DNA of 64,000 nucleotides from Arthrobacter agilis (lineage in GTDB: Bacteria > Actinomycetota > Actinomycetes > Actinomycetales > Micrococcaceae). Shown here one piece after another: positions 7,502 to 43,083 of this stretch. Within the stretch, counting starts at the first letter, position 1. Every line of letters begins with the position of its first letter. The notes beneath the pieces are model-generated. The model was not told the DNA's origin. It made no database searches and saw only the letters and a program-made list of their open reading frames with translations. The position numbers and the translations under genes are program-made. The stretch spans positions 62,001 through 126,000 of the forward strand of contig NZ_VHIM01000005.1 in NCBI RefSeq assembly GCF_006494655.1, in the 5' to 3' direction.

Positions 7502-7567
7502 CGCGCCGCGCCGCGCTGCCAGATCCGCGGGGGCGTTACGCCGGGTCTGACACGGTGCCGCGGGTTT
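7502..7567 (+). repeat. REP-like GC-rich near-palindrome, copy A
   Basis: This is the most diverged member of a five-copy dispersed family. It shares the core pattern CCAGATCCGCGGGGGCG, then GGGTCTGAC, then CCGCGGGTTT. It lies in the divergent intergenic region between the AEC carrier and the rhamnogalacturonan enzyme gene, upstream of the latter's operator. Between 7443 and 7756 nothing else was found except the operator and promoter listed separately. Confidence 0.75.
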
Positions 7568-7594
7568 GGGCCGGCGTGGACGGACACCTCGAAC

Positions 7595-7609
7595 GGGAAG
7601 CGTTTTCCC
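7595..7609 (+). promoter_or_regulatory. LacI-type operator upstream of the rhamnogalacturonan enzyme gene
   Basis: The 15-mer GGGAAGCGTTTTCCC has inverted half-sites GGGAA/TTCCC and fits the LacI-family consensus AANCGNTT. It lies 7 nt upstream of the predicted -35 box. Induction by a pectin-derived sugar through a LacI-family regulator is inferred. No such regulator gene is adjacent. Confidence 0.6.
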
Positions 7610-7616
7610 AAATCTC

Positions 7617-7645
7617 TTGATCCCCCCTCGAGGCCCCGCTAGGCT
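7617..7645 (+). promoter_or_regulatory. Predicted promoter of the rhamnogalacturonan enzyme gene
   Basis: The -35 box is TTGATC (7617-7622) and the -10 box TAGGCT (7640-7645), with a 17-nt spacer. Transcription would begin near 7652, giving a leader of about 105 nt before the ATG at 7757. Confidence 0.55.
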
Positions 7646-7756
7646 GACGACACCGACCGCGTCTCAGCGCTCCTCGTGCCGCCGTACCCGGCCCGTGGGA
7701 AGGGTGGTCGGAGTCCAGTAGCCGTTTTCAATGACGAAACGAGAAGGTACCTCCCC

Positions 7757-10700
7757 ATGCCACATCCCGGTCTTCAGCGCGCCTGTTTGGCGTCTCCACT
7801 CCTCGCCGGCGTCACCATCCTCAGCCTGGCGCTCATGGGCGCTCCGGCCGTCGCCGCCGATCCGCCCCGTACCTACTCCTTCGATTTCGGCACCGCCTCG
7901 AGCCCTGTGGAGGAGGGGTGGGAACGGGTTGCAGACTCCACCACCTACGCGCCGGGTGCCAGTTTCGGCATCGTCCCGGTCGACGGCGCCGCCCCCGTCT
8001 CCCGGTACCGCCAGGCAGGAACGCCGGACGCCGTCGCCAACGACTTCGTCCTCGGCGCCGCCTGGGGATTCGTGGCGGATGTGCCTAATGGCACGTACGA
8101 CGTGACGGTGCTCTCCGGGGATCAGCTCGCCGGGACCAGCACCACCAAGACCTCGATCTCCCTCGAGGGCACGCCCGCCGGTGTGGTGCAGGCCCGGCAG
8201 GCCGTGGAGCAGCAGACCTGGCGCACCACGGTCAGTGACGGGCAGTTGACGGTGGACGTCTCCGGACCGGGGGCCGGCGGTTATGTCAACGGGATCGTCA
8301 TCACGGAAGCTCCGACCGCACCCGTCGAGCCCGACCCCGACGAACCCGAGTCCGCCCTCGCGGCCCCGCAGGATCTGCGCGTCGCTCACGTCGCAGCGGA
8401 CGGCGTCGTCCTCCGCTGGAACGAGGTGGCCGGTGCCGCGGGCTACATCGTCTCCCGCTCCTCCTCCGCAACCGGGCCGTTCGAGCAGGTGGCCGAGACG
8501 GCTGCAGGGCGCGACGTCTTCGTCACCGACCCGACGGCCGAGACCTCCACCCCCAACTTCTACCGCGTCCAGGCCCGGGCCGCGGACGGCCTCTCGGCGC
8601 CGTCGAGCCTGACGGTCTCGAACCCCCTCGACGACCCGCCCGCCCTGCCCGACGGCGGCGTCCTGACCTTCGATCTCGGCAGTGGCACGACGGCGCAGGG
8701 GTCGGTCCGGCTCGATGCCACCTCCGCCTATTCGGCGACGACGAGGGTCGGGTTCATCGACCCGACGAAGGTCACGGCAACCGACCGCGGCGGCCAGGAT
8801 GCCACCCGAGGCGACTTCGTGACCGTCGGCGACACCGAACTCGTCGTCGACCTCCCGAACGGCGACTACGCGGTGGACCTGATCGCCGGTGACGCGGGCG
8901 GCCCCACCGACGTCGCCATCACCGCCGAGCAGATGGCGAAGGTCCAGCCCACCACGAAGGCCACCGGCGAATTCCTCGAGATGTCCTTCGACATCGCCGT
9001 CGTGGACGGCCAGTTGAACCTGGACTTCGCGGGTACCGCGCCCAACCTGAACGCCCTCGTGCTCACGCGCCAGGGGGAGCGGACCGAGGGTGCCGAGCCG
9101 ACGATGTGGATCACGGGCGACTCCACCGTCCAGACCTACACCAGCGACTACGCTCCGCAGGCGGGCTGGGGTCAGATGGTCGACCGTTTCCTGGACGACG
9201 GCGTGACCGTCGAGAACAAGGCGATCGGCGGGCGCAGCTCGAAGAACTTCATCAGCCAGGGCCGTCTCGACGAGGTGCTCCGCACCATCCGTCCCGGCGA
9301 CTATCTGTTCGTGCAGTTCGGCCACAACGACAACAGCTACGGCGTGGACGACCGGTTCGCGGCCCCGGCCGACTACTACGAGTACCTGCGCACCTATGTG
9401 GACGGCGCGCGCCAGCGCGGAGCCACCCCGGTCCTCGTGACTCCGGTCTCGCGCCGTTCCTTCGACGCCGCGACGGGAGAGGCGAATGTCTCCTTCCCCG
9501 CCTACGTGGATGCCGTGAAGGCGCTCGCGGAAGAGACCGGCACGCCCGTCGTGGATCTCTCCGCCTCCAGCCGCGCCTACCTGACCGGGATCGGCGCCGA
9601 GGCCGCGAAGTCCGTCTTCCTCCACGTCCCGGCCGGGGTGTATGCGAACCGCCCCACCGGCACCGCCGATGACACGCACTTCCAGGACTACGGCGCCATC
9701 CAGATGGCCCGCCTCGTGGCTACCGACGTCGCCGCCCTGGACATCCCGCTCGCGGACAACGTGGCCGCCGTCGAGCCGCCCGCAGCGGTTCCCGCGGCAC
9801 CCGCGGGCGTCGTCGCGAGCAACATCTCCAACGCGGGAGCGCAGCTCACGTGGCAGGCCGTGGACGGTGCGGACATCTACAAGATCAGCGTCAAGAAGGC
9901 GTCCGACGCCGACGACGCCTACGCGCTGGTCACGACGTCGACGCTCCCGCAGGCCGCTGTCAGCGGTCTGACCGAGGGGGAGTCCTACGATCTTCGGGTC
10001 GTCGCGGTCAACGGACGCGGCGATTCCGCGCCGTCCGCAGCCGTCAGGGTCACCACCAAGGCGCCGCTCTACTCGTTCGACGTGCAGCTCGCCGGCAATC
10101 CCGTGATGCCGGGCTACACCGAGGTGAACCAGAACAGCACGTACGACGCCGACCGCGGGTGGGGCTTCCTCGACGTCTCCGGACTGGGCGGCCGCGACCG
10201 GGGCGTCGGCTTCGACCCGGCGCCGACCGACCTGGAGCGCGACTTCCTGCTCCCGACGACGACCCACGAGTTCGCGGTGGACGTCCCGAACGGTTCCTAC
10301 GCCGTGAAGACCTACAACGGCGACTGGATCGGTACCAGCCGCTCCACCATCCAGCTCGAGGGCAAGAACTTCGGCGACTCGAACGCGGGCCGCGCCTCGG
10401 TCTCGCAGAAGGTCAGCCAGCCGGTACAGGTCACGGACGGGCAGCTGAACCTCGTGCTCACCGGGTCGTCGTCCCGTCTCAACGGCATCGAGATCACGCC
10501 GCTGATCCTGGCGCCGTCCGGGCTGGTGCTCGACGATCTCACCATCGACGGGTCCGCCGTCACCGTCGACCTCGGCTGGGAACCCACCGAGGGTGCTGCG
10601 GGTTACCGCGTGTACCGCGCGTCGGCCGGGAACGCCCCGGTCGCCGTCGGTGACACCGACGCCCCCGATTTCAGGGACACCACGGCCGACGTCGGCCTGG

Positions 10701-13237
10701 CGTACACCTACACCGTGGTGGCGCTCGACGCGGCCGGCACGGAATCCGTCGCGTCGAACCCGCTCGAACTGACCACGGTTGATCCGGACGTCCCGGTGGC
10801 GCCCGTGCCGACCGGTCTGGCCCTCGGCGCCGTCAACAAGAACGACGTGACCATCACCTGGACGCCGTCGAACGGCGCCCTGTTCTACCAGGTGTACCGG
10901 GCCGAGCCGACGGCGGACGGGTCGCTCGGCGACCTCGAGCTCGTGGGCCGCGCGGACGGGGCGACGTTCACCGACACGGACGTGCTGACGACCATCGAGT
11001 ACACGTACGCGGTGACCGCGGTGAACGCGGGCGGCACGTCCGATCGGTCCTCCACCATCACCTCCCCGGCCGCGACCACCCTGCAGCGCCAGGCCGAGCG
11101 GCTCGACCGCGCACCCGTCGCCGTGCAGGGCGCGTACGGCGTGTACGTGGGCTGGCGCATGCTCGGGCTCGACGACGACGCCATCGCGTTCCACGTCTAC
11201 CGCGACGGCGAACGGATCACCAGTGAGCCCGTCACCGACAGCACGAACCTGCTCGACGCGGACGGCTCCGGCGATGTCACCTACCGGGTCAGCTCCATCG
11301 TGGACGGCGTCGAACGCTGGGCCACGGAGGACTTCACCGTGTGGGGCCAGCAGTACCTCGACGTACCCCTCGACAAGCCGGCCGACGCCGTCACCAAGGA
11401 CGGGCAGCCCTACTCCTACAAGGCGGGCGACGCCTCCGTGGGTGACGTCGACGGCGACGGCGAGTACGAGATCATCCTCAAGTGGGACCCGACCAACAGC
11501 CGCGACAACTCGCAGGCCGGCTACACGGGCACCGTCTACGTCGACGCCTACAAGCTCGACGGCACGCGGCTGTGGCGGATCGACCTCGGGAAGAACATCC
11601 GGGCCGGCGCGCACTACACGCAGTTCCAGGTGTTCGACCTCGACGGCAACGGCAAGGCCGAAGTGACCATGAAGACCGCCGACGGCACCGTCGACGGCGC
11701 GGGCACGGTGATCGGCAGTGCCACCGCCGACTACCGCAACTCCGCCGGCTACGTCCTCAGCGGTCCCGAATTCCTGACCGTGTTCGACGGTGAGACCGGT
11801 GCCGCGATCGACACGATCGACTACGTGCCCGCCCGGGGCGACGTCGGCTCCTGGGGCGACACCTACGGCAACCGGGTGGACCGCTTCCTGGCGGGCGTGG
11901 CGTACCTGGACGGCGAGAAGCCGAGCGTGGTGTTCAGCCGCGGCTACTACACCCGGGCGGTCATCGCCGCCTTCGACTTCGACGGCACGGACCTCACCTC
12001 ACGGTGGACGTTCGACTCCGATGTCTCCGGTGACGAGTACCGCAGCCAGGGCAACCACCAGTTCTCCGTCGCGGATGTCGACGGCGACCAGAAGGACGAG
12101 ATCGTCTTCGGGTCCATGACCATCGACGACGACGGCGACGCGCTGTACACCACGGGCCTCGGCCACGGTGACGCCCTGCACGTCTCGGACTTCGATCCGT
12201 CACGGCCGGGACTGGAGGTCTTCGCTGCGCACGAGGACATGGGCTCCTCGGGCAACCTGGGCGCTACCTTCCGGGACGCCGCGACGGGCGAGATCCTCTG
12301 GTCCATCCCGGCGACCCGCGACACCGGCCGGACCACGATGGCGGACATCGATCCCAACCATCCGGGGGCCGAGGGCTGGGCGATCGGCGGGGACGCGTCC
12401 TACAACTCGCCCGTGGGGCAGCTGAGGTCCGCGAAGGGTGAACTGCTCTCGGAGAAGATTCCGGCCGCCAACTTCGTCACCTGGTGGGACGCCGACCTCC
12501 TCCGCGAGATCACGGACAACGACTACGACACCGAGATCGCCGCGGGAGTGCCGACCATCTCGAAGTGGAACCCCGAGACCCAGGAGGCCGAGGAGATCTA
12601 TCGGGCGGAAGGGACGCTGAGCAACAACACCACGAAGGCGAATCCCGCCCTCCAGGCGGACCTGTTCGGTGACTGGCGCGAGGAGATCGTGACGCGGACC
12701 GAGGACTCCTCGGCGCTGCGGATCGCGACGACAGTCGACCTGACCGAGCACCGGCTGCGCACCCTGCAGTCGGATTCCACCTACCGGCTGGGTGTGGCCG
12801 GGCAGAACACCTCCTACAACCAGCCGCCGCACACCTCCTACTTCCTCGGCATGGACATGCAGGCACCTCCCGCGCCGAGCATCGCCTACACGGGCGAGGA
12901 TCGTGGGCAGGGCGACCTGGTGAATAAGGAGCCGTCCTTCGTCCCGGAACCCGCGGGGGCGAAGGAGCTCAAGCAGTCGACGCGCATCGATCTCGGCCTG
13001 GCCGGCGAGAAATACGGGCGCGGTGCCAACGAGGTCGTGCTGGAGAACCTCGAGCCGGGCAGCTGGTTCTACGTGTACCTCGACAGCACGGGCCTCGGCT
13101 GGCGCCAGGCATCCGCTGCCGGTGAGGTCACGGTGACCACACCGGAGGACACGCGCCCGGGGAACAACAAGATCGTCGTCTTCACGGGCGACGGCGAGCT
13201 CCTCGGATGGGAGGCCCTCCGGGTCACCGGCCCCTGA
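7757..13237 (+). CDS. Secreted fusion: rhamnogalacturonan acetylesterase + PL11 rhamnogalacturonan lyase
   Basis: An 1826-residue extracellular enzyme against the pectin backbone rhamnogalacturonan I. A Sec signal peptide (cut near residue 33) is followed by a galactose-binding-like domain (35-190), FN3 (200-290), a second galactose-binding-like domain (296-450) and an SGNH esterase (450-675). The esterase has GDS with Ser456, GHND at 522-525 and DTH with Asp639 and His641. Then come FN3, a third galactose-binding-like domain (772-915), two FN3 domains and a full PL11 lyase (about 1109-1701) rich in DVDGDGEYE-type calcium loops, with a short beta domain at the C-terminus. The esterase would remove acetyl groups so the lyase can cleave by beta-elimination. 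The start ATG has AAGG 7-10 nt upstream. No LPXTG or membrane anchor is seen, so the enzyme is released. It is monocistronic, with an operator before it and a terminator after it. Confidence 0.93.
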   Translation: MPHPGLQRACLASPLLAGVTILSLALMGAPAVAADPPRTYSFDFGTASSPVEEGWERVADSTTYAPGASFGIVPVDGAAPVSRYRQAGTPDAVANDFVLGAAWGFVADVPNGTYDVTVLSGDQLAGTSTTKTSISLEGTPAGVVQARQAVEQQTWRTTVSDGQLTVDVSGPGAGGYVNGIVITEAPTAPVEPDPDEPESALAAPQDLRVAHVAADGVVLRWNEVAGAAGYIVSRSSSATGPFEQVAETAAGRDVFVTDPTAETSTPNFYRVQARAADGLSAPSSLTVSNPLDDPPALPDGGVLTFDLGSGTTAQGSVRLDATSAYSATTRVGFIDPTKVTATDRGGQDATRGDFVTVGDTELVVDLPNGDYAVDLIAGDAGGPTDVAITAEQMAKVQPTTKATGEFLEMSFDIAVVDGQLNLDFAGTAPNLNALVLTRQGERTEGAEPTMWITGDSTVQTYTSDYAPQAGWGQMVDRFLDDGVTVENKAIGGRSSKNFISQGRLDEVLRTIRPGDYLFVQFGHNDNSYGVDDRFAAPADYYEYLRTYVDGARQRGATPVLVTPVSRRSFDAATGEANVSFPAYVDAVKALAEETGTPVVDLSASSRAYLTGIGAEAAKSVFLHVPAGVYANRPTGTADDTHFQDYGAIQMARLVATDVAALDIPLADNVAAVEPPAAVPAAPAGVVASNISNAGAQLTWQAVDGADIYKISVKKASDADDAYALVTTSTLPQAAVSGLTEGESYDLRVVAVNGRGDSAPSAAVRVTTKAPLYSFDVQLAGNPVMPGYTEVNQNSTYDADRGWGFLDVSGLGGRDRGVGFDPAPTDLERDFLLPTTTHEFAVDVPNGSYAVKTYNGDWIGTSRSTIQLEGKNFGDSNAGRASVSQKVSQPVQVTDGQLNLVLTGSSSRLNGIEITPLILAPSGLVLDDLTIDGSAVTVDLGWEPTEGAAGYRVYRASAGNAPVAVGDTDAPDFRDTTADVGLAYTYTVVALDAAGTESVASNPLELTTVDPDVPVAPVPTGLALGAVNKNDVTITWTPSNGALFYQVYRAEPTADGSLGDLELVGRADGATFTDTDVLTTIEYTYAVTAVNAGGTSDRSSTITSPAATTLQRQAERLDRAPVAVQGAYGVYVGWRMLGLDDDAIAFHVYRDGERITSEPVTDSTNLLDADGSGDVTYRVSSIVDGVERWATEDFTVWGQQYLDVPLDKPADAVTKDGQPYSYKAGDASVGDVDGDGEYEIILKWDPTNSRDNSQAGYTGTVYVDAYKLDGTRLWRIDLGKNIRAGAHYTQFQVFDLDGNGKAEVTMKTADGTVDGAGTVIGSATADYRNSAGYVLSGPEFLTVFDGETGAAIDTIDYVPARGDVGSWGDTYGNRVDRFLAGVAYLDGEKPSVVFSRGYYTRAVIAAFDFDGTDLTSRWTFDSDVSGDEYRSQGNHQFSVADVDGDQKDEIVFGSMTIDDDGDALYTTGLGHGDALHVSDFDPSRPGLEVFAAHEDMGSSGNLGATFRDAATGEILWSIPATRDTGRTTMADIDPNHPGAEGWAIGGDASYNSPVGQLRSAKGELLSEKIPAANFVTWWDADLLREITDNDYDTEIAAGVPTISKWNPETQEAEEIYRAEGTLSNNTTKANPALQADLFGDWREEIVTRTEDSSALRIATTVDLTEHRLRTLQSDSTYRLGVAGQNTSYNQPPHTSYFLGMDMQAPPAPSIAYTGEDRGQGDLVNKEPSFVPEPAGAKELKQSTRIDLGLAGEKYGRGANEVVLENLEPGSWFYVYLDSTGLGWRQASAAGEVTVTTPEDTRPGNNKIVVFTGDGELLGWEALRVTGP

Positions 13238-13247
13238 TGCACACCGA

Positions 13248-13376: not shown

Positions 13377-13446
13377 GTGTACCGCCGAGCCGGGCGGTCA
13401 GACCCGCGGGGGCGGTACCGCGGGTCTGACCCGCTGCCGCGGGTTT
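13377..13446 (+). repeat. REP-like GC-rich near-palindrome, copy B
   Basis: The 13-nt arm GTCAGACCCGCGG pairs with CCGCGGGTCTGAC in an imperfect palindrome between two convergent genes. The left flank GTGTACCGCCGAGCCGGGC is duplicated 28 bp upstream (13349-13367 and 13377-13395), so part of the element has been tandemly copied. Confidence 0.85.
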
Positions 13447-13472
13447 ACCGCACGATCCGCTGCTAGTCGCTG

Positions 13473-14348
13473 CTAGTCGCTGTTGCCACGACGCCCGTGA
13501 TCCGCCGCGTAGGCCGCGAAGACCTCGCCGTCATCCGCCGATGTCAGGAAACCGTCCTGCAGCTTCGAGGCCAGCTCGTCGAGGGCAGCCTCGAGCCGGG
13601 CGGCACTCAGCCGCAGATCAGGCGTGGCGCCGGATGCCGCAGCTCGCTGAATCCGGACCGCCACGTGGATCTGCCGGGCCAGGGAGAGGCAGGGGTCCTC
13701 CTCCTGGAAGTAGTAGGTCTCGGCGTGCTGCGTGAAGTCGATCCGAGCCACCACGACCTGCGACGCGAGGGTGTCGAGCACACGTGTCACGTCCCGCGGG
13801 TCCAGGTCGGGCACTGCATCAGGGTAGTGCACATCGGCCAGGCCCTTGAGCTCGAGAGCCAGGGAACGACGCCGGGACAGTGGTGGGTACACCTGTGTGA
13901 ACCACGTGAGCGCAGCCGTCAGTAGGGCGAAGCCGGCCAGGCCCTCGAACGGACTGAGGAAGCGCAACCAGGCGTTCGTCGCCACTACGTCGCCGAAACC
14001 GAGGGTCGCGAGCGTGACGCTCGAGATGTACGCAGCCTCCAGGAAATCGGGGTACCGGGCTGGTTCGATCCCCGGAGAGTAGGAGAACCCGGCGGGAACG
14101 TGCGGAAGGTACACCAGCGCCCACCCGAGAACCTGCATCACCACCCAGAGGATGAGCACGGCGACCATGATGGCCGGCCCGATGGCCGATCCCAGGCGGT
14201 GCCCCATGCGCCGGGAGAATGCCCACAGGGACCGCATGACCCAGGTACTGATGAAACCGGTCCCGCTCGGATGCACCAGGGACTGGTAGGTGTCGAGGAG
14301 GCCAACGACAATGAGCGCGGCTCCCGCGATCGTGAGGACCGTATCCAT
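13473..14348 (-). CDS. Two-helix potassium channel family protein
   Basis: A 291-residue membrane protein with an N-terminal helix, two further helices around a pore loop and a cytoplasmic C-terminal half of about 140 residues. The pore signature is TLGFGD (in TLATLGFGDVVATN), a variant of the K+ filter TVGYGD that also occurs in real potassium channels. The C-terminal region is not an obvious RCK/TrkA domain. GGGAG precedes the ATG. It is divergent from a CPA1 antiporter gene, with less than 110 nt between the likely starts, which suggests a shared role in monovalent cation balance. Confidence 0.8.
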   Translation of the reverse strand: MDTVLTIAGAALIVVGLLDTYQSLVHPSGTGFISTWVMRSLWAFSRRMGHRLGSAIGPAIMVAVLILWVVMQVLGWALVYLPHVPAGFSYSPGIEPARYPDFLEAAYISSVTLATLGFGDVVATNAWLRFLSPFEGLAGFALLTAALTWFTQVYPPLSRRRSLALELKGLADVHYPDAVPDLDPRDVTRVLDTLASQVVVARIDFTQHAETYYFQEEDPCLSLARQIHVAVRIQRAAASGATPDLRLSAARLEAALDELASKLQDGFLTSADDGEVFAAYAADHGRRGNSD

Positions 14349-14455
14349 GCGTGACTCCCATCAAGCCTGCTGCGCGGGGGCATCGTGACCCACCCGTGAC
14401 CGATACCAAGGCTACTGTGGATTGCGCCCCGCTCCTCGGACGCTTACGGAAGGTG

Positions 14456-15694: not shown

Positions 15695-15749
15695 GCACTC
15701 CGCCGCGGGTTCGCGTCCGCGATGGGTGTTGCGCGCGGTGGGCGGCGGG

Positions 15750-15813
15750 CGCGCCGAGCCGGGCTGTCAGATGCGCGGGGGCGTCACGCCGGGTCTGGCA
15801 CTGCGCCGCGGGT
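15750..15813 (+). repeat. REP-like GC-rich near-palindrome, copy C
   Basis: CGCCGAGCCGGGCTGTCAG continues with ATGCGCGGGGGCG and is followed by GCCGGGTCTGGCA and CCGCGGGTAT. Several arm positions are mutated relative to the perfect copy E. It lies between the antiporter gene and the thiamine-binding gene, both on the plus strand. Confidence 0.8.
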
Positions 15814-15941
15814 ATGCGCCCAGCCGCGATGTGCGCCGAGCCCCGCGAGGACGACGTCGAGCGGCTCGACGACGTCGGCCAGAACCGTGGGACGTCGCAC
15901 GGGGGCTCCCCGACAGGACGCCGACGTGCCAGACTGGGGCC

Positions 15942-24841: not shown

Positions 24842-24914
24842 GCCCCCATCGTTTAGCGGCCTAGGACACCGCCCTTTCACGGCGGCAGCACGGGTTCGAA
24901 TCCCGTTGGGGGTA
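24842..24914 (+). tRNA. tRNA-Glu (TTC)
   Basis: A 73-nt cloverleaf. The acceptor stem pairs GCCCCCA with TGGGGGT, the anticodon loop reads CTTTCAC with anticodon TTC, and the T arm contains GGTTCGAAT. CCA is not encoded. It is the first of three tRNA genes. Confidence 0.96.
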
Positions 24915-25002
24915 CGCATGGGCAGCCCTCACGGGCGGTCAACCGGCACGAAAAGTGCTGGTAGGCTGGAGCTCTTGCAAAAACAGCAAGTGATGTTAGC
25001 AA

Positions 25003-25076: not shown

Positions 25077-25145
25077 CTCAGGCGGCTGGTACCCCTCGGG
25101 GGCCGGCCGGGCTGGATACGGTGATCATCGGAATGATGGTCGCAA

Positions 25146-33011: not shown

Positions 33012-33025
33012 GCGGAAGCACCGGC

Positions 33026-34680: not shown

Positions 34681-34706
34681 GGTCCCTACGTTACCAACGG
34701 CGCTGT

Positions 34707-35531: not shown

Positions 35532-35616
35532 GGCCCAAGGCTACTCCCGTTGCATTTCTACGAGGTTACGAAATCGGGGAATCGTCGCGGCGACGATGCT
35601 CCTTGGGGTGGCGGTC

Positions 35617-35680
35617 CGCCGCGCCGGGCTGTCAGACCCGCGGGAGCGCACCCGCGGGTTTGACGCGCCGAGCCGGGTGT
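35617..35680 (+). repeat. REP-like GC-rich near-palindrome, copy D
   Basis: GCCGCGCCGGGCTGTCAGAC leads into CCGCGGG, and the opposite arm CCCGCGGGTTTGAC is followed by GCGCCGAGCCGGGTG. One T replaces C in the right arm. It lies between nadE and the oxidoreductase gene at 35721. Confidence 0.85.
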
Positions 35681-35720
35681 CCGGCGGCGGCGGTGGAGGA
35701 CGACGTCGGCCGGGCGTCGC

Positions 35721-36782
35721 TCATGCCTCGACCGCGACGGCGTCGCTCGGATAGCGCAGGCCCATCTGGCGGCGCGCCTCGTCGAGCAGTGCCATGGTGC
35801 CGACCGATTCCGCGGGTGTCATGAAGGGGCTCTCGGTCAGGCCCGCCTGCACGCACCTCGTCACCTCGCGCAGCTCGTACGCGAAGCCGTTGCCGAACAC
35901 CTCGAAACGCTCCGTCCGCAGCAGGCCCTTCCGAGGCTGGACGATCAACTCGGTGGGGTTGAACAGCTGGGCCGAGGACCGCAGCCACCCTTCCGTGCCG
36001 CCGACGGTGACCACGCTCGGGCACTGGGCGCCGAGCGAGGTGATGAGCTGCGCGTGCGCGCCGTCGTCGTACCGGAGGGTGAGGGTGTTCTGGAGGTCGA
36101 TCCCCTCGGGCGTCAGGACCCCGTCGGCTCGGACGCTCGAAGGCTCCCCGAGAGCCCCGAGCGCCCAGGTCAGCGGGTACACGGCGAGGTCCAGCAGGGC
36201 TCCGCCGCCCGCGGCCGGGTCCCACGTGCGCGACGACGCGTCGTAGGCCGGCGCGAACCCGAGGTCCGCCTGGAGCCAGCGGGGCCGGCCGATCTCACCC
36301 GAGCGCAGGATCGTGAGCGCGCGGCGGAAGCTTGGCAGGAAGCGGGTCCACACGGCTTCCATGAGGAAGAGGCCGTGCTCACGCGCGACGTCCGCGAGGT
36401 GCCGGGCCTGGCCGGCGTCCATGGTGATCGGCTTCTCGCAGAGGACGTGCTTGCCCGCCGTGAGCGCCGCCAGGGCGATGGCGTGGTGCTGCGCGTGCGG
36501 CGTGGCGATGTAGACGACGTCGACGGCCGCGTCGGCGAGGAGCCTGGAGTACCCGGGGACGTCCCCGGCATCCGAGTACGCAGCTGCGAACCCGAATCGC
36601 CGTGCGAAGGCCCGGGCGGAGGCCTCTGTCCGGGAGCTGACCGCCTGAAGGGCGGCGTCCTCGAGGCGGGCGAGATCCTCCACGACGCGGGCGGCGATGG
36701 AGCCGGTGGCGACGACGCCCCAGCGGAGGGGGCGGCCGGTGGCCACCGAGGGGAGGACGGCACTGACGGGTGCGGGGAGCAT
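35721..36782 (-). CDS. Gfo/Idh/MocA family oxidoreductase
   Basis: A 353-residue NAD(P)-dependent oxidoreductase of the glucose-fructose/inositol dehydrogenase superfamily. The N-terminal Rossmann fold reads LRWGVVATGSIAARVVEDL, and the catalytic Lys is in CEKPITMD near residue 110. The C-terminal alpha/beta domain has DLGFAPAYDASSRTWDP and GGGALLDLAVYPL, typical of the dimeric dihydrodiol dehydrogenase-like branch. The substrate is probably a sugar or glycoside. It lies 68 nt downstream of the LacI gene of the beta-glucoside operon on the same strand and may be its last gene. Confidence 0.85.
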   Translation of the reverse strand: MLPAPVSAVLPSVATGRPLRWGVVATGSIAARVVEDLARLEDAALQAVSSRTEASARAFARRFGFAAAYSDAGDVPGYSRLLADAAVDVVYIATPHAQHHAIALAALTAGKHVLCEKPITMDAGQARHLADVAREHGLFLMEAVWTRFLPSFRRALTILRSGEIGRPRWLQADLGFAPAYDASSRTWDPAAGGGALLDLAVYPLTWALGALGEPSSVRADGVLTPEGIDLQNTLTLRYDDGAHAQLITSLGAQCPSVVTVGGTEGWLRSSAQLFNPTELIVQPRKGLLRTERFEVFGNGFAYELREVTRCVQAGLTESPFMTPAESVGTMALLDEARRQMGLRYPSDAVAVEA

Positions 36783-36850
36783 GGCATGGGCCTTTCGCGG
36801 GCGCGTCGGAGGAAGGGGGGGGTACGGCGGGTGGGACGGAAGAGTCCCGG

Positions 36851-37870
36851 TCAGGCGGAGTCGCGGACCACGAGCGAGGTGGGCATCCTCGTGACGCGCT
36901 CCGCGGGCTTGCCCTCGATGAGGTTCACGAGGATCTCTGCCATCTTCCTGCCGAGTTCGATGATCGGGTGGTGCACGGTGGTCAGGGCAGGGGTGACCGA
37001 GGTGGCGAACGAGTCGTCGTCGAAGCCCACGACGGCGATGTCCTCCGGGATGCTCAGGCCGCGGCCCTGGATGGCGGTGTAGGCGCCGGCGGCCATCTGG
37101 TCGTTCCCGGCGAAGACGGCGTCGATGGGCTTGCCGCGATCCAGCAGGCGGTGCATGGCGCGGGCGCCCGAGGCGAGTGTGAAGTCGCCGATTTCCGTGA
37201 GGCCCTCACCGAGCCCGGCTTCCCGCACCGCCGTCCGCCAGCCCGCGAGTCGGTCGAGCCCGGGCGGCATGTCCTGCGGCCCGGCGATCGTCGCCACGTG
37301 CTTCCGCCCGGCATCGGTGAGGAGCCGCGTGGCGCTGTAGGCCGCCTGCTCGTTGTCCGCCTCCACGTAGTAGCTCTCCCCGCCGCCGACGAGCGGGCGC
37401 CCGGCGAAGACCATGGGGAGCGACCCGGACAGGTGCGTCCAGGAGTGGTCCCCACTGTGGTGGGAGACCACCAGGACGCCGTCGACGTTGCCGCCGAGAA
37501 GGAACCCGCGGGTCTTCTCCGGCTTCGACTCCGATGAGATCACCATGTTCAGGGTGTAGTCGGTGTCCGTGAGGTACAGGGCTATGCCCTGGACCACCGA
37601 GGCGAAGAACGGGTCCGCGAAGACCTTCGACGTCGATTCGGGGACGATCAGTGTCACCGTGTTCGCCCGTCGCGTGGCGAGGGATCGTGCCGCGCGGTTG
37701 GGGGTGTAGTCGAGGGCGAGGATGGCCCTCTTCACGGACTGCGCGAGCTCGGGGTCCACGCTGGGGCTGTCGTTGACCACCCGGGACACCGTGGCCCGCG
37801 AGACCCCGGCCAGGGCAGCCACCATTTCGAGGGTGGGTACCGGCCGGGGCCCGCTGGTGTCCTGCGTCAT
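36851..37870 (-). CDS. LacI family regulator of the beta-glucoside (ceb-like) operon
   Basis: A 339-residue LacI/GalR regulator. The helix-turn-helix is TLEMVAALAGVSRATVSRVV and the hinge YTPNRAARSLATRRA contains the NxxAR that enters the minor groove. The ligand domain runs from TVTLIVPES to VGFDDDSFATSVTPALTTV. ATG 37870 is chosen because GGAG sits 6 nt upstream; the ATG at 37876 overlaps that GGAG. It follows the GH1 gene by 41 nt and probably controls the two GAGAGCGCTCTC operators at 42822-42889, like CebR in Streptomyces. Confidence 0.88.
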   Translation of the reverse strand: MTQDTSGPRPVPTLEMVAALAGVSRATVSRVVNDSPSVDPELAQSVKRAILALDYTPNRAARSLATRRANTVTLIVPESTSKVFADPFFASVVQGIALYLTDTDYTLNMVISSESKPEKTRGFLLGGNVDGVLVVSHHSGDHSWTHLSGSLPMVFAGRPLVGGGESYYVEADNEQAAYSATRLLTDAGRKHVATIAGPQDMPPGLDRLAGWRTAVREAGLGEGLTEIGDFTLASGARAMHRLLDRGKPIDAVFAGNDQMAAGAYTAIQGRGLSIPEDIAVVGFDDDSFATSVTPALTTVHHPIIELGRKMAEILVNLIEGKPAERVTRMPTSLVVRDSA

Positions 37871-37911
37871 CGTCATCTCCGGAACCTCGAACAGTGTGCC
37901 TGGAGGTTACT

Positions 37912-39369
37912 CTAGGCGTTCGCGGAGGTGAGGGCGGGCGCGTTCGCGGCAGCGATGAGCCGTGCGTAGGCCAGCCCGCTGTCCTTGATCGTCCGCTCGA
38001 AGGTGTCGTAGTCCACGCGCACCACGCCGAAGCGCTTGCCGTACCCCCACGACCACTCGAAGTTGTCGAGCAGCGACCAGACGAAGTAGCCACGAACGTC
38101 GGCACCGGCGTCGATCGCCCGCCCGACGGCGTCGACGTGGTCGAGGACGAACTGGGTGCGCTCGCGGTCGTGGACCGCGCCGTCACCGCTGACGACGTCG
38201 TCGTACGCGGCGCCGTTCTCCGTCACGTAGAGCGGCGGGAGGGCGGGGTACTCCTCGCCTAGGCGCACGAGCAGCGTGCGCAACCCGTCCGGGTTGACCT
38301 CCCAGTTCATGGCCGTGCGCGGGAGGCCACGGCTCGGGAAGGAGATGTCCTCCGAGCCGATCCAGCACGACGACGTCGGGCGGGTGGCGCCGCCCGAGTG
38401 GCCGTCCCCGTGCTCGGTGGTCGGGTGACCGCTGATGAGGTCGTCGTGGTAGTGGTTGACGCCGAGGAAGTCGATCGGGGCCCCGATGATCTCGAGGTCG
38501 CCCGGCCGGATGACGTCCCGGAGTCCGAACTGCTCGAGGTCGGCGAGGGTGTCCTCGGGGTAGGCGCCCCTGAGGATCGGATCGAGGAAGATCCGGTTCT
38601 GCAGCGAGTCGAAGCGGCGCGCGGCGTCGAGGTCGATCGGGTCGGCCGGGTCACGGGGGATCGAGTTGCTGAGGTTCAGGGTGATCCCGAGATGCGACGC
38701 CCCCCGGGCGCGGAGTTCGTTCACCACGAGTCCGTGGGCGAGGTGCTGGTGGTGGATGGCGGCCACCGCGGCGTCGGGCTCCTGGCGGCCGGGCGCGTGG
38801 ACCCCGGCGGCGTACCCCAGGAGTGAGGAGCAGAACGGCTCGTTGAACGTGGTCCAGTGATCCACCCGGTCCCCGAGCGCCGAATACACGTCGTTGGCGT
38901 AGTCCACGAACCGGTAGGCGGTGTCGCGGTTGGCCCAGCCACCCTTCTCCTCCAGCGCCTGGGGGAGGTCCCAGTGGTAGAGGGTCAGCCACGGGAGGAT
39001 TCCGGCACCGAGGAGTTCGTCCACGAGGCGCGAGTAGAAGTCGAGTCCCTCGGTGTTGGGGCCGCGGTCGCCGGGGCGGACCCTGGACCAACTCGTCGAG
39101 AACCGGTAGGAGCCGAGCCCCAGGTCCTTCATGATCGCGACGTCCTCCGGCATCCGGTGGTAGTGCTGCACGGCGTCCTGCAGGGTCTCGCCGTTGGCGA
39201 TCGCGCCCGGGACGCGCGCGAAGGCGTCCCAGACGGAATCCTCCTTGCCACCCTCGTGGCTGGCGCCTTCGACCTGCGCGGCCGCGGTGGCCGAGCCCCA
39301 GAGGAAGCCCTCGGGCCAGGTCCTCGGGGCGGGCGGGGTCGGCTGATGGGATGTTGCGTCGAGTGGCAT
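37912..39369 (-). CDS. GH1 family beta-glucosidase
   Basis: A 485-residue cytoplasmic glycoside hydrolase family 1 enzyme without a signal peptide. The acid/base Glu is in WTTFNEPF (TFNEP motif) and the nucleophile Glu in PLYVTENGAAY (TENG motif). The N-terminal motif FLWGSATAAAQVEGA and the C-terminal YFVWSLLDNFEWSWGYGKRF are also present. It should split cellobiose and related beta-glucosides imported by the preceding ABC system. Its ATG overlaps the stop of the upstream permease (TAATG), so translation is coupled. The frame extends further upstream without coding features. Confidence 0.95.
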   Translation of the reverse strand: MPLDATSHQPTPPAPRTWPEGFLWGSATAAAQVEGASHEGGKEDSVWDAFARVPGAIANGETLQDAVQHYHRMPEDVAIMKDLGLGSYRFSTSWSRVRPGDRGPNTEGLDFYSRLVDELLGAGILPWLTLYHWDLPQALEEKGGWANRDTAYRFVDYANDVYSALGDRVDHWTTFNEPFCSSLLGYAAGVHAPGRQEPDAAVAAIHHQHLAHGLVVNELRARGASHLGITLNLSNSIPRDPADPIDLDAARRFDSLQNRIFLDPILRGAYPEDTLADLEQFGLRDVIRPGDLEIIGAPIDFLGVNHYHDDLISGHPTTEHGDGHSGGATRPTSSCWIGSEDISFPSRGLPRTAMNWEVNPDGLRTLLVRLGEEYPALPPLYVTENGAAYDDVVSGDGAVHDRERTQFVLDHVDAVGRAIDAGADVRGYFVWSLLDNFEWSWGYGKRFGVVRVDYDTFERTIKDSGLAYARLIAAANAPALTSANA

Positions 39370-40271
39370 TAGCCCTTCACTGCTCCTTGCATGATTCCGG
39401 AAATGAGTTGACGGCCCGCGATGACGAAGAGCACCAGCAGCGGGAGGGTGGCCAGGACGGCGCCGGCCAGGACGATCGAGTAGTCCACGTACCGCGCCGA
39501 CTGCAGCTGGCTGAGAGCTGTCTGCAGGGTGGGGTTGCCGGGACCTAGCACCAGCAGCGGCCAGAGGAAGTCCGTCCACGCGGTCATGAACGTGAACAGG
39601 CCCAGGATCGCCATGGCGGGACGGGCGGCGGGAAGAGCGACGTGCCAGAAGGTGGAGATCATGGAAGCTCCGTCCATCCGGGCCGACTCGATGAGCTCGT
39701 CGGGGATGACGTCCACGAGGTACTGGCGCATGAAGAAGACACCGAACGCCGTCACGAGCGTGGGGATGATGACGGCACCGATCTCACCCGTCCAGCCGAG
39801 CGTGCGCATGAGCATGAACAGCGGGATGATGCCGAGCTGCGTGGGGATGGCCATGGTGGCGATCACCGCGACCATGAGTCCGTTGCGGCCACGGAAGCGG
39901 AGCTTCGCGAACGAGTACCCGGCGAGGGTGGAGAACCCGACCACCGAGACCGTGATGATCCCGGAGATGGCCACGCTGTTGCCGAGGGCCAGCCAGAACG
40001 GGACGGTGTCGAACACCTCGCCGACGTTCGTCCAGAAGTTGCCGCCGGGGAACAGCGGCGGCCAGGTCTCCCCGAGAGCCTCGTTGGACCGGCTGCCGAT
40101 GATCACCGACCACCAGAGAGGGTAGGCGGAGGCCAGGAAGAACGCGATCAGCAGGCCGTAGGTCAGGAACCCGGGCCGGCGCCCGTTGCCGAACAGCCCA
40201 CGACGCAGGGAGCGCTTCCGGGCGGGCCGAGCTTCCGCCGTCGTCCGCGGCCTGGTGTCGATGGCGGTCAT
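39369..40271 (-). CDS. Carbohydrate ABC transporter permease, MalG-like (cellobiose type)
   Basis: A 300-residue permease with six membrane helices. The EAA loop reads ELIESARMDGASMISTFWHV, around residues 199-218. It follows the MalF-like permease gene with an ATGA overlap and precedes the GH1 gene with a TAATG overlap. The organisation binding protein, permease, permease, beta-glucosidase, LacI matches the cebEFG-bglC-cebR systems of Streptomyces, hence the inferred role in cellobiose or cello-oligosaccharide uptake. Confidence 0.88.
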   Translation of the reverse strand: MTAIDTRPRTTAEARPARKRSLRRGLFGNGRRPGFLTYGLLIAFFLASAYPLWWSVIIGSRSNEALGETWPPLFPGGNFWTNVGEVFDTVPFWLALGNSVAISGIITVSVVGFSTLAGYSFAKLRFRGRNGLMVAVIATMAIPTQLGIIPLFMLMRTLGWTGEIGAVIIPTLVTAFGVFFMRQYLVDVIPDELIESARMDGASMISTFWHVALPAARPAMAILGLFTFMTAWTDFLWPLLVLGPGNPTLQTALSQLQSARYVDYSIVLAGAVLATLPLLVLFVIAGRQLISGIMQGAVKG

Positions 40272-41395
40272 CGCACGTTCCTTCCGTTGGTGTCTGATGG
40301 TCCCGCGGCGCCGGCGCCGTGGTCCGGGTCGGCTGTAGGCGCCGGTGGCTGCGGACCGACGGCCGGGAGTACGACGGCGGGCGCTGCGGAGCGTTTGCGC
40401 CGGCGGCTGCCGGCACTCCTGCGCGGTCGGCGCCCGTCGCCGGTGGTGGCGATCCTCTGCGAGATCAGGTAGTTCATGAGGCCGAACAGCACGATGATGA
40501 GGAACAGGAGCCAGGCGATGGTGGAGGCCTTGCCGAAGTTCGATCGCTGGAACGCCATCTCGTACAGGTAGAGCACCGTTGTCTGGAACTGCGCTGCGGT
40601 TCCGCCGTACGTCCGCGGGTCGAACAGGCGGGGCTCGGTGAAGATCTGCAGCCCGCCGATGGTCGCGGTGATGACCACGAAGATCATGGTGGGCCGGATG
40701 CTCGGCAGCGTGATGCTGAAGAAACGGCGGAAGGTTCCGGCGCCGTCGATCGACGCGGACTCGTAGATGTCGCGGGGTACGGACTGCATGGCTGCCAGCA
40801 GGATCAGGGCGTTGTAGCCGGTCCAGCGCCAGTTCACCATGGTGGCGATCGCGATATGGCTCGGCAGGGTCTCGTTCGTCCACAGGATCCGGTCCATCCC
40901 GAAGCTCTCCAGGATGTTGTTGATCAGCCCGTACTGCTCACCGAACAGGTTCGAGAAGATCAGGGCGACGGCAACGGGGGTCACGATGTAGGGGAGCAGG
41001 ATGCTCATGCGCCAGAACGTCCTGGCGCGGAGATTCTGGTCCAGCACGGCCGCGATGGCCGTGGCGACGATCAGCTGCGGGATGGTCGAGAGCAGGAAGA
41101 TGCTCATCGTGTTGAACAGTGAGTTCCAGAAGAAGCGGTCCTGGAGGACCTCCTGGAAGTTCCGCAGGCCCACGAACTCACCCTGCCCCTTGAGCAGGTG
41201 CCAGTCGAAGAGCGAGACGAAGAAGGTGTAGCCGAGAGGGAACAGGCCCACCAGGGCGAAGAGGATGAAGAACGGTGAGATGTACAGGTAGGGCGAGGCC
41301 TTCATGTCGAAGACGCTCAGCCGCTGACGGAAGGTGAGGACGGGTTTCGCAGGGGCAGGGCTGCTGGCTGCCGGGCGGTTCAGTGTCGTGGTCAT
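40268..41395 (-). CDS. Carbohydrate ABC transporter permease, MalF-like (cellobiose type)
   Basis: A 375-residue permease with six helices (about residues 35-300). The EAA-type loop reads IYESASIDGAGTFRRFFSI, around residues 205-223. After the last helix comes a tail of about 60 residues rich in Arg, Ala and Pro (RRPRRSAGSRRRKRS), longer than in MalF and probably disordered in the cytoplasm. It pairs with the MalG-like permease that follows. GGAG precedes the start. No ATPase gene is present in the operon. Confidence 0.88.
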   Translation of the reverse strand: MTTTLNRPAASSPAPAKPVLTFRQRLSVFDMKASPYLYISPFFILFALVGLFPLGYTFFVSLFDWHLLKGQGEFVGLRNFQEVLQDRFFWNSLFNTMSIFLLSTIPQLIVATAIAAVLDQNLRARTFWRMSILLPYIVTPVAVALIFSNLFGEQYGLINNILESFGMDRILWTNETLPSHIAIATMVNWRWTGYNALILLAAMQSVPRDIYESASIDGAGTFRRFFSITLPSIRPTMIFVVITATIGGLQIFTEPRLFDPRTYGGTAAQFQTTVLYLYEMAFQRSNFGKASTIAWLLFLIIVLFGLMNYLISQRIATTGDGRRPRRSAGSRRRKRSAAPAVVLPAVGPQPPAPTADPDHGAGAAGPSDTNGRNVR

Positions 41396-41413
41396 GAGGT
41401 TCCAGACTCCAGG

Positions 41414-41440
41414 GGGGCCTCCGGTGCTGCCGGAGGCCCC
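41414..41440 (-). terminator. Intercistronic hairpin after the cellobiose-type binding protein gene
   Basis: GGGGCCTCCGG pairs perfectly with CCGGAGGCCCC around the loop TGCTG, 14 nt after the binding-protein stop and about 18 nt before the permease start. There is no T-run, so partial termination or mRNA protection is more likely than full termination. Confidence 0.8.
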
Positions 41441-41453
41441 GCGGCCGGTGCTG

Positions 41454-42776
41454 CTAGTTGTTCACGACACGGTCGTTGAGGAGCTGGAGGGCTTCGTTCC
41501 AGGCCTCGTCGGCCGTGCCTGCATCGGAGTCGAGGATCTTCAGGGCCGGCGCGAAGACGTTCTCCTGGATCTCCGAGTCCTGCGGGCCCTTGAACTGGGC
41601 CACGACCCCTTCGGCGCGTGATGCGAAGATCTCACCGTAGGGAGCGTCGTTGAAGAGCTCGTTGGGCACGGCGTCGGCGACGATCTTTTGCTGCGCCTCG
41701 AGCGTGCTCGGGAAGTTGTTCGCGGCGGCGGACTGCTTGACCATCTGCTCGGGGTCGGTGAGCCAGGTGGCGAGCTTGGCGGCCTCGGCGGGGTGCTCGG
41801 AGCTCTCGGGGACGGAGAGGAAGGCGCCGCCCCAGTTGGACGCACCGCCCGGGAAGACATCGGCGACGTCCCACCCGGTCTCGGGGCCGCCACCGGCGGC
41901 TTCGAGCTGCTCCTTGATGGTGCCGAGCATCCACGCGGGGCAGACGTGGACCGCGAAGGAGCCGTCGACGAAGGCTTTGCCCTTGCCCCAGTCGAACTGC
42001 TTCTGGTTGGCGGAGAGGCCGTCGGCCGTCCCCGCGGCGAGGAGGTCGAACTGGGCGCGCATGGCCTCGTTGCCCTCGATGTTCAGCTCGCCGTCGGCCG
42101 TGTAGTAGCCCTCGTCCATCTGGTTGACCATGGAGTTCCAGACGAAGGACGACTGGTCGTACCACGCCTTGCCGGTGGCCTCGTTGTACTGGCGGCCCAG
42201 ATCGAAGTACGTCTCCCACGTGGCGTCGTCGCCGCCGAAGAGTTCGGCGACTTCCTCGCGATCCGTGGGCAGGCCCGCGGCGTCGAACAGTTCGCGGTTG
42301 AAGCACAGGGCCTGGGGTCCGATATCCGTGCCGAGGCCGATCACGCGTCCCTCCGGGTCGGTGCCCTGCTCGAACTTCCAGTCCACCCAGTTGTCCTTGA
42401 TGTCGGCGGCGCCGTACTCGTTCAGATCGACGAACTGGTCGGAGACCTCCATGATCGAGCCGAGCCAGCCCTCCTCGACGGCGACGACATCGCTCAGCCC
42501 CGAGCCCGCGGCGAGCTTCGTGAAGGCGTCGACGCGGGCATTGGCGCTGCCGTCGATGTTGTTGGCCTCGATGGTGACGCCCGGGTTCTGCTCCTCGTAC
42601 TCGGCGTAGAGGTCGTCGTAGCCGAACTGCCCGAAGGTGGTGACGGTCAAGGTCACGGGGTTGTCGGCACTGGCCGCTTCGTCGCTCCCTCCGCCTCCGC
42701 CGCAGCCCGAGGCCACGATGGCGAGGGATGCGACGCCGGCGAGGGCGGTGATTTTCCTGAGTCGCGAGTATTCCAC
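41454..42776 (-). CDS. Extracellular solute-binding lipoprotein of the cellobiose-type ABC transporter
   Basis: A 440-residue family-1 binding protein. The signal peptide ends at the lipobox VASGC (Cys25 from the chosen start), followed by a glycine-rich linker. The ligand-binding part has NPVTLTVTTFGQFGYDDLY at its start and NWGGAFLSVPESSEHPAEAA later, typical of this class. GTG 42776 is selected because AAAGGAG lies 5 nt upstream; GTG 42782 overlaps that Shine-Dalgarno. It is the first gene of the operon, transcribed from the promoter at 42848-42876. Confidence 0.88.
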   Translation of the reverse strand: MEYSRLRKITALAGVASLAIVASGCGGGGGSDEAASADNPVTLTVTTFGQFGYDDLYAEYEEQNPGVTIEANNIDGSANARVDAFTKLAAGSGLSDVVAVEEGWLGSIMEVSDQFVDLNEYGAADIKDNWVDWKFEQGTDPEGRVIGLGTDIGPQALCFNRELFDAAGLPTDREEVAELFGGDDATWETYFDLGRQYNEATGKAWYDQSSFVWNSMVNQMDEGYYTADGELNIEGNEAMRAQFDLLAAGTADGLSANQKQFDWGKGKAFVDGSFAVHVCPAWMLGTIKEQLEAAGGGPETGWDVADVFPGGASNWGGAFLSVPESSEHPAEAAKLATWLTDPEQMVKQSAAANNFPSTLEAQQKIVADAVPNELFNDAPYGEIFASRAEGVVAQFKGPQDSEIQENVFAPALKILDSDAGTADEAWNEALQLLNDRVVNN

Positions 42777-42821
42777 GATCACTCCTTTGTGTGAATGCGA
42801 GCGACATACGCCGACGGGCGG

Positions 42822-42833
42822 GAGAGCGCTCTC
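42822..42833. promoter_or_regulatory. LacI-type operator O1 (downstream of the start site)
   Basis: GAGAGCGCTCTC is a perfect 12-bp palindrome centred 55 bp from an identical site. It lies just downstream of the predicted transcription start, so bound repressor would block elongation. Confidence 0.8.
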
Positions 42834-42847
42834 TGGGATGTGGGACC

Positions 42848-42876
42848 AGCGTATGTGCGGAATGTCACAACGTCAA
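42848..42876 (-). promoter_or_regulatory. Predicted promoter of the cellobiose-type operon
   Basis: On the minus strand TTGACG (42876-42871) and TACGCT (42853-42848) are separated by 17 nt. Operator O2 abuts the -35 box, and O1 lies about 7-20 nt past the expected start. Confidence 0.7.
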
Positions 42877-42889
42877 GAGAGCGCTCTCT
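42876..42889. promoter_or_regulatory. LacI-type operator O2 (at the -35 box)
   Basis: AGAGAGCGCTCTCT is a perfect 14-bp palindrome sharing its central 12 bp with O1. It shares one base with the -35 box. The core matches CebR-type sites (GGGAGCGCTCCC in Streptomyces) except for outer bases. Confidence 0.8.
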
Positions 42890-42983
42890 CGCTTCTCTCG
42901 GAGTTGCCCTGTTTCGCTCGGAAATGGGGCAAACAGGACAGCAGCACCGGCGAACCGCTGATGCCGGTGCTGTAGTGGATTGT

Positions 42984-43019
42984 CCGGGTGAACCGGGTGA
43001 ACCGGGTGAACCGGGTGAC
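42984..43019 (+). repeat. 9-bp tandem repeat, four copies
   Basis: CCGGGTGAA occurs three times and CCGGGTGAC once, directly before REP-like copy E. The 315-nt gap 42783-43097 is filled by the operators, promoter, this repeat and copy E. The units are too short for a CRISPR. Confidence 0.9.
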
Positions 43020-43020
43020 C

Positions 43021-43083
43021 CGCCGCGCCGGGCGGTCAGACCCGCGGGGGCGCCTCCGCGGGTCTGACGTGCCGAGCCGCGTG
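43021..43083 (+). repeat. REP-like GC-rich palindrome, copy E (best preserved)
   Basis: The arms GTCAGACCCGCGG (43035-43047) and CCGCGGGTCTGAC (43056-43068) are perfectly complementary over 13 bp with an 8-nt loop. They are flanked by GCCGCGCCGGGCG on the left and GTGCCGAGCCGCG on the right. It ends 14 nt after the stop of the minus-strand gene at 43098, where it could also terminate transcription. Confidence 0.88.

Follow-up and report, generated by a model that had tools for sequence, protein, structure and literature searches.

Five copies of a palindromic element lie in the window, as we call the whole 64,000-nucleotide stretch of Arthrobacter agilis DNA that was analysed:

7502..7571, + strand: copy A, in the divergent gap between the Mem_trans gene (6522-7442, - strand) and the RGL11 lyase gene (7787-13237, + strand); stem degenerate
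13381..13450, + strand: copy B, in the convergent gap 3' of the RGL11 lyase gene; perfect 13-bp stem with an 8-nt spacer
15750..15819, + strand: copy C, 3' of the Na/H exchanger gene; stem degenerate
35615..35684, + strand: copy D, between the start of nadE (34707-35531, - strand) and the end of the Gfo/Idh gene (35721-36782, - strand)
43019..43088, + strand: copy E, 9 bp beyond the end of an AP_endonuc_2-type gene (43098-44096, - strand); perfect 13-bp stem

All five palindromes claimed in a sequence-only reading were found where it had placed them, with stem, loop and stem in the order described, and the copies form a gap-free alignment of 70 columns, with 39 invariant. Every copy is intergenic with respect to genes from our own codon-bias caller; these gene calls also bear out the divergent setting of copy A and the flanking of the rhamnogalacturonan enzyme gene, the RGL11 lyase gene, by copies A and B. 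The stem of copy E is perfect as claimed, and those of D (one change), A and C (several changes each) are altered, but copy B (13397-13430), which had been counted among the mutated copies, has the same perfect 13-bp stem, GTCAGACCCGCGG/CCGCGGGTCTGAC. In the genome this 26-bp palindrome has three exact occurrences, copies B and E among them; the reversed control pattern has none. When each copy was folded alone, B, D and E folded better than shuffled sequences (z -3.4, -3.0 and -4.3, respectively), and A and C no better (z 0.0 and +0.8). The single direction of reading reported for the five copies holds in the window, where all are on the + strand, but orientation is mixed genome-wide. Five sites within 35.6 kb form an unusual cluster: when 19 sites were placed at random 20000 times, such clustering arose 16 times. 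The 13-8-13 geometry resembles that of loxP/FRT, and the spacer varies among copies. A 96-bp query around copy E had no match in plasmids or phages, the exact palindrome had none in GTDB contigs (from which the host was possibly left out), and Rfam recognized in the window only three tRNAs at gathering scores, with no match to the element.

In the host genome the family has 22 matches at 19 sites, each element being about 70 bp long. With a covariance model built from the five copies, copy A, a member of the training set, scored E 1.1e-11, and copies on which the model had not been trained were found with E values down to 5e-11, so that the family is more than chance. Three further species from an Arthrobacter group have related element families. 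With 19 host sites and these further families, the outcome named beforehand as speaking against a dispersed family, few copies and no relatives, did not occur. The copies are intergenic, none of 65 in five genomes overlapping a called gene; 60 of the 65 are in gaps holding at least one gene 3' end, and five are in divergent gaps, compared with nine of the 25 gaps in the window that measure at least 90 bp. At one place the elements are in tandem with a 49-bp period, and two further host genes, an APH-type kinase gene and an ORF without a Pfam match, lie between inverted copies. At 10 sites common to species each copy follows the consensus of its own species, a species-specific homogenization indicative of concerted change (one copy was compared per junction and species, and nine of the ten clade copies came from genome G030 and one from G028). 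Ordinary recombination could likewise homogenize copies. Element-rich and element-poor species are interspersed on a three-gene tree. In a wider survey with stricter filters, two of 197 sampled family genomes, both of this genus, had matches at E <= 1e-4, G030 and G028 not being among the rows listed.

The elements are REP-like, as had been proposed, in being dispersed, intergenic, palindromic, mosaic, clade-limited and multi-copy; the likeness does not extend to a RAYT or to a GT[AG]G tag. Contrary to the expected dependence on a RAYT transposase, Y1_Tnp (PF01797) was found in none of 35 genomes of the genus, host included, although the same search was positive in five of 14 control genomes; overall it occurred in two of 57 genomes, both from other families. 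No GT[AG]G was present at the stem foot, from 6 nt outside to 4 nt inside on both strands, in any of 25 host rows or 44 rows of other species. Nor is a Y1/RAYT gene flanked by the element, the flanked position being held by a different, nuclease-like gene. It is therefore extremely improbable, despite the form and placement of the repeats, that this is a classical RAYT REP family whose RAYT has been lost or missed. Palindromic intergenic repeats seemingly without a dedicated transposase are also known as the CGTC-tagged REPs, reported from five phyla in the available text of PMC3733652, where Actinobacteria are not among them and the word does not appear. Membership of that group was considered and rejected, since 13 of 25 host rows, but just two of the 44 rows of other species, have CGTC at the foot of the stem. 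An intrinsic terminator or conserved ncRNA was likewise rejected, given 19 different sites, no Rfam family and five hairpins none of which is followed by a T-run on either strand. The earlier statement that these are not ordinary terminators thus gains from the divergent position of copy A and the missing T-runs, and is qualified by the frequency of copies near gene 3' ends; because 60 of 65 copies share a gap with such an end, the elements may affect transcript ends.

The gene in the flanked position encodes a protein of 314 amino acids and lies between two inverted copies 60 kb outside the window (host contig C44:186249-187566), its immediate neighbours being a TetR gene and a TGT gene. The protein has N-terminal AbiEi winged-helix matches in both PADLOC and Pfam, together with a weak REase-like (MTES_1575) match, which was below the Pfam cut-off in every protein showing one. 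A PDB profile search matched no solved structure, NCBIfam had no match for six proteins, and PHROGs gave a weak match to one function-unknown family for two of three proteins. Residues E203, E207, D238, E249, D251 and K255 are invariant across 18 aligned homologues, interrupted and more distant homologues having been left out of the alignment, and these acidic and lysine residues are putatively catalytic. The gene is under purifying selection (dN 0.021, dS 0.218; dN 0.043, dS 0.287). The AbiEi winged-helix matches could also mean that the palindromes are operators of the protein, which would then be a regulator in defence or in a toxin-antitoxin system, with these sites as its regulon. We consider this very improbable, since elements of such length, in one place tandemly arranged, are so seldom found in divergent gaps, and since the REase-like domain would be unneeded.

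A close homologue (at least 69% identity) is present in exactly the four element-rich genomes among 38 and in none of the 34 others. All 12 close element-poor relatives lacked a match at E <= 1e-20, and G020 has one recognizable element without the gene. With G006 and G028 being sister genomes, about three lineages underlie the co-occurrence. In all three relatives read, the TetR-TGT junction is empty (75, 92 and 115 bp), and the gene thus has occupied and empty alleles. One possible explanation is that the protein is a true transposition enzyme and the palindromes MITE-like ends, which would move by excision and insertion instead of undergoing conversion where they stand. The repeat-gene-repeat layout and the empty sites favour this, as does one convergent junction at which the spacer is 9-48 bp in six element-poor genomes and 151-322 bp in four element-rich ones (102-123 bp in three other element-poor genomes; the spacer could not be measured in G019, and G026 and G033, at contig ends, were left out). 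Transposition nevertheless appears unlikely to us, as no target-site duplication was found by eye, no strand-transfer domain was recognized in the protein by domain search, and element positions are common to species at the 10 junctions, which suggests old residence. The idea of gene cassettes, with direct copies (D/E and B/C) bounding segments absent in relatives, lost ground when genes of that block were seen to come and go beside nadE in genomes lacking elements there.

Distant homologues of the protein are also flanked by palindromes, which are unrelated in sequence to the host element. Palindrome flanks in either orientation at E <= 1e-6 were found at 17 of 27 homologue loci and none of 72 control loci, and an inverted flank match at E <= 1e-3 at 18 of 27 and none of 72; the 27 homologue loci are not independent, several coming from one genome or clade. 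Of 28 loci submitted to the tests, L296 dropped out because of its short length; L300, L301 and three locus-less matches were not among the 28. Among the 18 passing loci 11 score higher inverted and seven higher direct, and the distinction between homologues and controls is at least as good when flanks of both orientations are counted as when inverted ones alone are. Both orientations fail at E <= 1e-3 in eight of the 27 homologue loci, including that of G010 (L278), where flanking palindromes are visible by eye and were scored as a miss; three of 72 control loci pass in the direct orientation at this threshold. In the host clade the flanking pair is inverted at all four loci. The homologue in Rothia aerolata has a copy of an unrelated palindrome on each side, with a 64-bp core identical in direct orientation and an inverted match of 76% over 97 bp. 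The repeat type, assigned by eye, tracks the protein clade. Dispersed intergenic copies of the flanking repeats were found in three of four sampled genomes (G002, three in 400 kb; G034, three in 800 kb; G018, one in 360 kb), and none in 400 kb of G010, in which the gene is present; alignments shorter than 35 bases were dropped. These unrelated palindromes argue, with the co-occurrence of gene and elements (four of four against none of 34) and the lack of T-runs on either strand, against passive GC-rich intergenic repeats, partly terminators and homogenized by RecA, that match the nuclease-like gene by chance. That reading, which draws on the preponderance of gaps with a gene 3' end and on the simple hairpins with similar arms seen by eye at the nadE junction of a few element-poor species, is in our opinion improbable.

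Our working hypothesis, which we hold to be somewhat probable, is that the elements are non-autonomous REP-like palindromes with a trans-acting partner, the AbiEi-like winged-helix/REase-like (MTES_1575, DUF559/Vsr-type) protein. The winged helix would recognize the palindrome, possibly in cruciform or hairpin form, and the nuclease domain would nick or cut there or close by. With another copy as the repair template, the current sequence would then pass between copies in a homing-like manner. Copies would stay alike and palindromic where the enzyme is present, and would decay once the repeat-gene-repeat unit is lost. More broadly, the arguments seem to us evenly balanced as to whether Actinobacteria have a second, RAYT-independent class of REP system, present in two or more genera, in which AbiEi-REase nucleases, each with a clade-specific palindrome on both sides of its gene, use cut-and-copy conversion to maintain the likeness of intergenic palindromes.

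Free-standing, Vsr-like homing endonucleases are small DNA-binding nucleases with conserved acidic residues that spread by break repair. By analogy, the present protein, a small putative DNA-binding nuclease, would spread sequence in the same way, but its predicted target is a dispersed palindrome that also flanks the gene, and not a single homing site. Its N-terminal winged helix is similar to that of the AbiEi antitoxin of the AbiE type IV toxin-antitoxin system; unlike in that antitoxin, a REase-like domain then follows, and the immediate neighbours are the TetR and TGT genes. The closest likeness is to REP/REPIN-RAYT (TnpAREP) systems and the REPtron, with their dispersed intergenic palindromes and a gene flanked by copies. 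As far as the available text of the sources goes, RAYT systems have a flanked gene, a lineage-specific repeat, a patchy distribution and repeat numbers that track the gene (PMC2817692, PMC6006769, PMC3116915), all of which have counterparts here. The system thus seems to work like REP-RAYT with another enzyme, although cleavage and conversion are inferred. It differs in that the host gene encodes an AbiEi winged-helix/REase-like protein and not a Y1 HUH transposase, in the missing GT[AG]G tag, in flanking copies whose inverted arrangement, seen in the host clade, is not shared by every clade, and in its 19 host sites, whereas REP copy number is given as usually >100 (PMC2817692, in the text available).

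No description of a palindrome paired with an AbiEi-REase-like gene was found in the literature searched, which was mostly outside subscription journals and included the available text of PMC12306157. Many REP families are thought to be RAYT-dependent, and the accessible parts of PMC3116915 and PMC6006769 describe their spread, and the reason why the enzyme is retained, as open. If an unrelated nuclease occupies this position, systems of a repeat plus a flanked gene have more than one origin, and the essential features (flanked gene, palindrome, homogenization) would be separable from one particular chemistry. The hypothesis would also give an uncharacterized type of AbiEi/REase protein a testable function, and it predicts that loss of the gene is followed by decay of the repeats.

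Five GC-rich palindromic elements of about 70 bp occupy the places in the window that the sequence-only reading had assigned to them, and align without gaps over 70 columns, 39 of which are invariant:

7502..7571 (+), copy A, in a divergent gap
13381..13450 (+), copy B, in a convergent gap
15750..15819 (+), copy C, between same-direction genes
35615..35684 (+), copy D, between same-direction genes
43019..43088 (+), copy E, between same-direction genes

The gap types follow our own codon-bias gene calls, which agree with that reading that all five copies are intergenic and that A lies between divergent genes. The perfect 13-bp stem that it had ascribed to E alone is indeed present there, but copy B has one too, each with an 8-nt spacer; B, D and E, but not A and C, fold better than shuffled sequences. 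Direct copies D and E enclose a sugar-transport block of about 7.4 kb (window 35684-43019), which is absent there in G030 and G020, two genus genomes in which nadE adjoins an AP_endonuc_2 gene with element(s) in between; genes of this block also vary beside nadE in genomes with no elements at that place. Ion channel and Na/H exchanger genes lie between direct copies B and C (window 13450-15750); this stretch is absent at the junction in G030, G028 and G006, where a single element is found. A TTTCTACRAGGTTACGAAATC-like motif, perhaps a promoter or operator, lies upstream of nadE in several species (window 35531-35620), and three tRNA genes are clustered at window 24842-25218.

The window corresponds to C44:62001-126000 of the host genome (3.24 Mb, 48 contigs). 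Across this genome a covariance model of the five window copies (R1) gave 44 hits over the two strands at E <= 10, and a model of 31 copies from five genomes (R2) gave 22 at E <= 0.001, counted as 19 sites. The element is a mosaic: a CGCCGCGCCGGG-like arm and a hairpin are followed by a GCCGCGGGTTT-like module or by a second arm. At one site 49-bp units are arrayed in tandem (3.7 copies, 99% matches). Host sites are clustered: four adjacent pairs are no more than 2.5 kb apart where 0.26 would be expected, a count that 0 of 20000 random sets reached. Beside one host element (L030:1400-1560) are 19-bp short tandem repeats of a stem half (GTCAGACCCGGGGCGC type). When the 31 copies were aligned, the counts of paired cells and of cells changed on two sides, and the covariation score, were higher than in any of the 500 shuffles and than in the slid versions, and one outer pair has switched from G-C to C-G; neither the number of pairs showing a change on both sides nor the number of pair types rose above the shuffles. 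No called gene is overlapped by any of 65 copies, taken from the five genomes at E values up to 0.05. Five of the 65 lie in divergent gaps, as compared with 9 of the window's 25 gaps that are 90 bp or longer. This is a real REP-like family.

Its distribution is patchy. R2 was positive in 5 of 38 genus genomes (host 22 matches, G030 23, G028 nine, G006 seven and G020 one, a few being one place scored on both strands). Outside the genus the family was not found: R1 was positive in 1 of 22 genera, and R2, on 197 drawn family genomes, in 1 of 32, with no second genus. In a tree of three genes, based on 2565 positions and weak at some deep nodes, the host groups with G020 and G032 (94), G030 with G024, G059 and G021 (99), and the pair G028 and G006 with G012 and G009 (72); element-rich and element-poor species are thus interspersed. 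At one anchored site, judged by eye, G020 and G032 have apparent decayed copies, and in G021 the anchors are separated by a mere 13 bp or so. At one convergent junction the spacer measures 9-48 bp in six element-poor genomes and 102-123 bp in a further three (G020, G032, G015), compared with 151-322 bp in the element-rich four (host, G030, G028 and G006).

The expected RAYT partner was not found: a search of 35 genus genomes turned up no Y1 transposase. Asking which genes stand between inverted copies, we picked by position the gene at C44:186475-187419 (-) on the host contig, which is flanked by copies at 186249 (+) and 187493 (-). Its 314-aa product matches REase_MTES_1575 weakly, at E 3.4e-5 and below the cut-off; homologues match AbiEi_4 (four of eight scanned above its cut-off) and, in all five scanned, the PADLOC AbiEi models. 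The gene is under purifying selection, and ESxGE, RxDF and EFDGxxK residues are invariant among 18 aligned homologues. Among the 38 genomes, only G030, G006 and G028 have homologues of 69-71% identity; at E <= 1e-20 none was found in 12 close relatives (G003, G009, G012, G015, G019, G020, G021, G024, G026, G032, G033, G059) or in eight further genomes, and 14 more distant genomes match at 30-58% identity over various lengths. Two other host genes also stand between inverted copies, an APH-type phosphotransferase and an ORF without Pfam match (L052:1497-2556, L050:1494-2791).

In distant genomes the homologues stand between palindromes of quite different sequence. Inverted matches between the 500-bp flanks occurred at 18 of 27 homologue loci, which are not independent, at E <= 1e-3 and at 14 at E <= 1e-6, against 0 of 72 control loci (from three genes: nadE, Lit and the one to the left of a shared element). 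Because the repeats are near-palindromic, both orientations were tested; with either accepted, the counts were 19/27 against 3/72 at E <= 1e-3 and 17/27 against 0/72 at E <= 1e-6, and the higher-scoring orientation at the 18 loci with an inverted match was inverted in 11 (including all four of the host clade) and direct in seven. Repeat types, assigned by eye, track clades of the protein tree. Dispersed intergenic copies beyond the gene flanks were seen in sampled DNA of G002 (3 in 400 kb), G034 (3 in 800 kb) and G018 (1 in 360 kb), and none in 400 kb of G010. Two copies of an unrelated, AT-richer palindrome enclose the Rothia aerolata homologue (L170:4360-5660), whose identity is about 29% over 292 aa; 64 bp of the two are identical in direct orientation, and inverted they match at 76% over 97 bp. 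No such pair was seen around the other named hit, from Tessaracoccus (L178), which is situated close to the end of its stretch. Homologues of 33-35% identity in G025 and G018 (L298, L299) have direct flanking repeats (E 1e-12, 2e-16), so flanking may extend to further paralogues.

The host repeat-gene-repeat unit is located between TetR and TGT genes. These are direct neighbours in G024, G059 and G020 (spacers 75, 92 and 115 bp), with no nuclease-like gene at the junction. TGT also adjoins the partner gene in G002, G034 and G010, which suggests that tgt is probably the ancestral location of the unit and that loss is the likelier origin of the empty sites.

Ten host gene junctions also hold an element in G030 or G028, as judged by flank matches, two of them (B/C and D/E) interrupted in the host by additional DNA. 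At these ten, orthologue identity between species (0.702) is lower than that among different sites within the host (0.751), close to that among different sites within the clade (0.704) and higher than that of non-orthologous copies between species (0.651); exchanging the species labels within sites never outperformed the true labelling (2/1024, the minimum possible). At seven diagnostic columns, picked on copies other than those tested, host cells were host-type in 53 cases, clade-type in 12 and other in five, and clade cells clade-type in 50, host-type in 13 and other in seven. The sequences show that the repeat family and the nuclease-like gene are associated; they also show flanking, co-occurrence, homogenisation and empty alleles, besides the purifying selection and the invariant residues. 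Our working hypothesis is that a winged helix of the protein recognises the palindrome, that the protein may cut DNA, and that templated repair would then pass sequence from copy to copy. The main alternative is that the AbiEi/REase-like protein transposes the element.

In the cited accounts of REP-RAYT systems, RAYT genes are flanked by inverted REPs, with one REP type per enzyme, and distribution is patchy with repeat counts tracking the gene (PMC2817692, PMC6006769, PMC3116915). The Arthrobacter family resembles these arrangements, but on two defining features it differs: neither a RAYT, in the 35 genus genomes, nor the GT[AG]G tag, in the aligned element rows, was found. For CGTC REPs the enzyme is given as not known in the account cited (PMC3733652); their tag is present in 13 of 25 host rows but in 2 of 44 other rows. 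The Arthrobacter system appears to work like REP-RAYT without being one. The AbiEi/REase-like protein is likely to represent a new type of partner for a REP-like family; the association is strong, and the mechanism is a proposed one.
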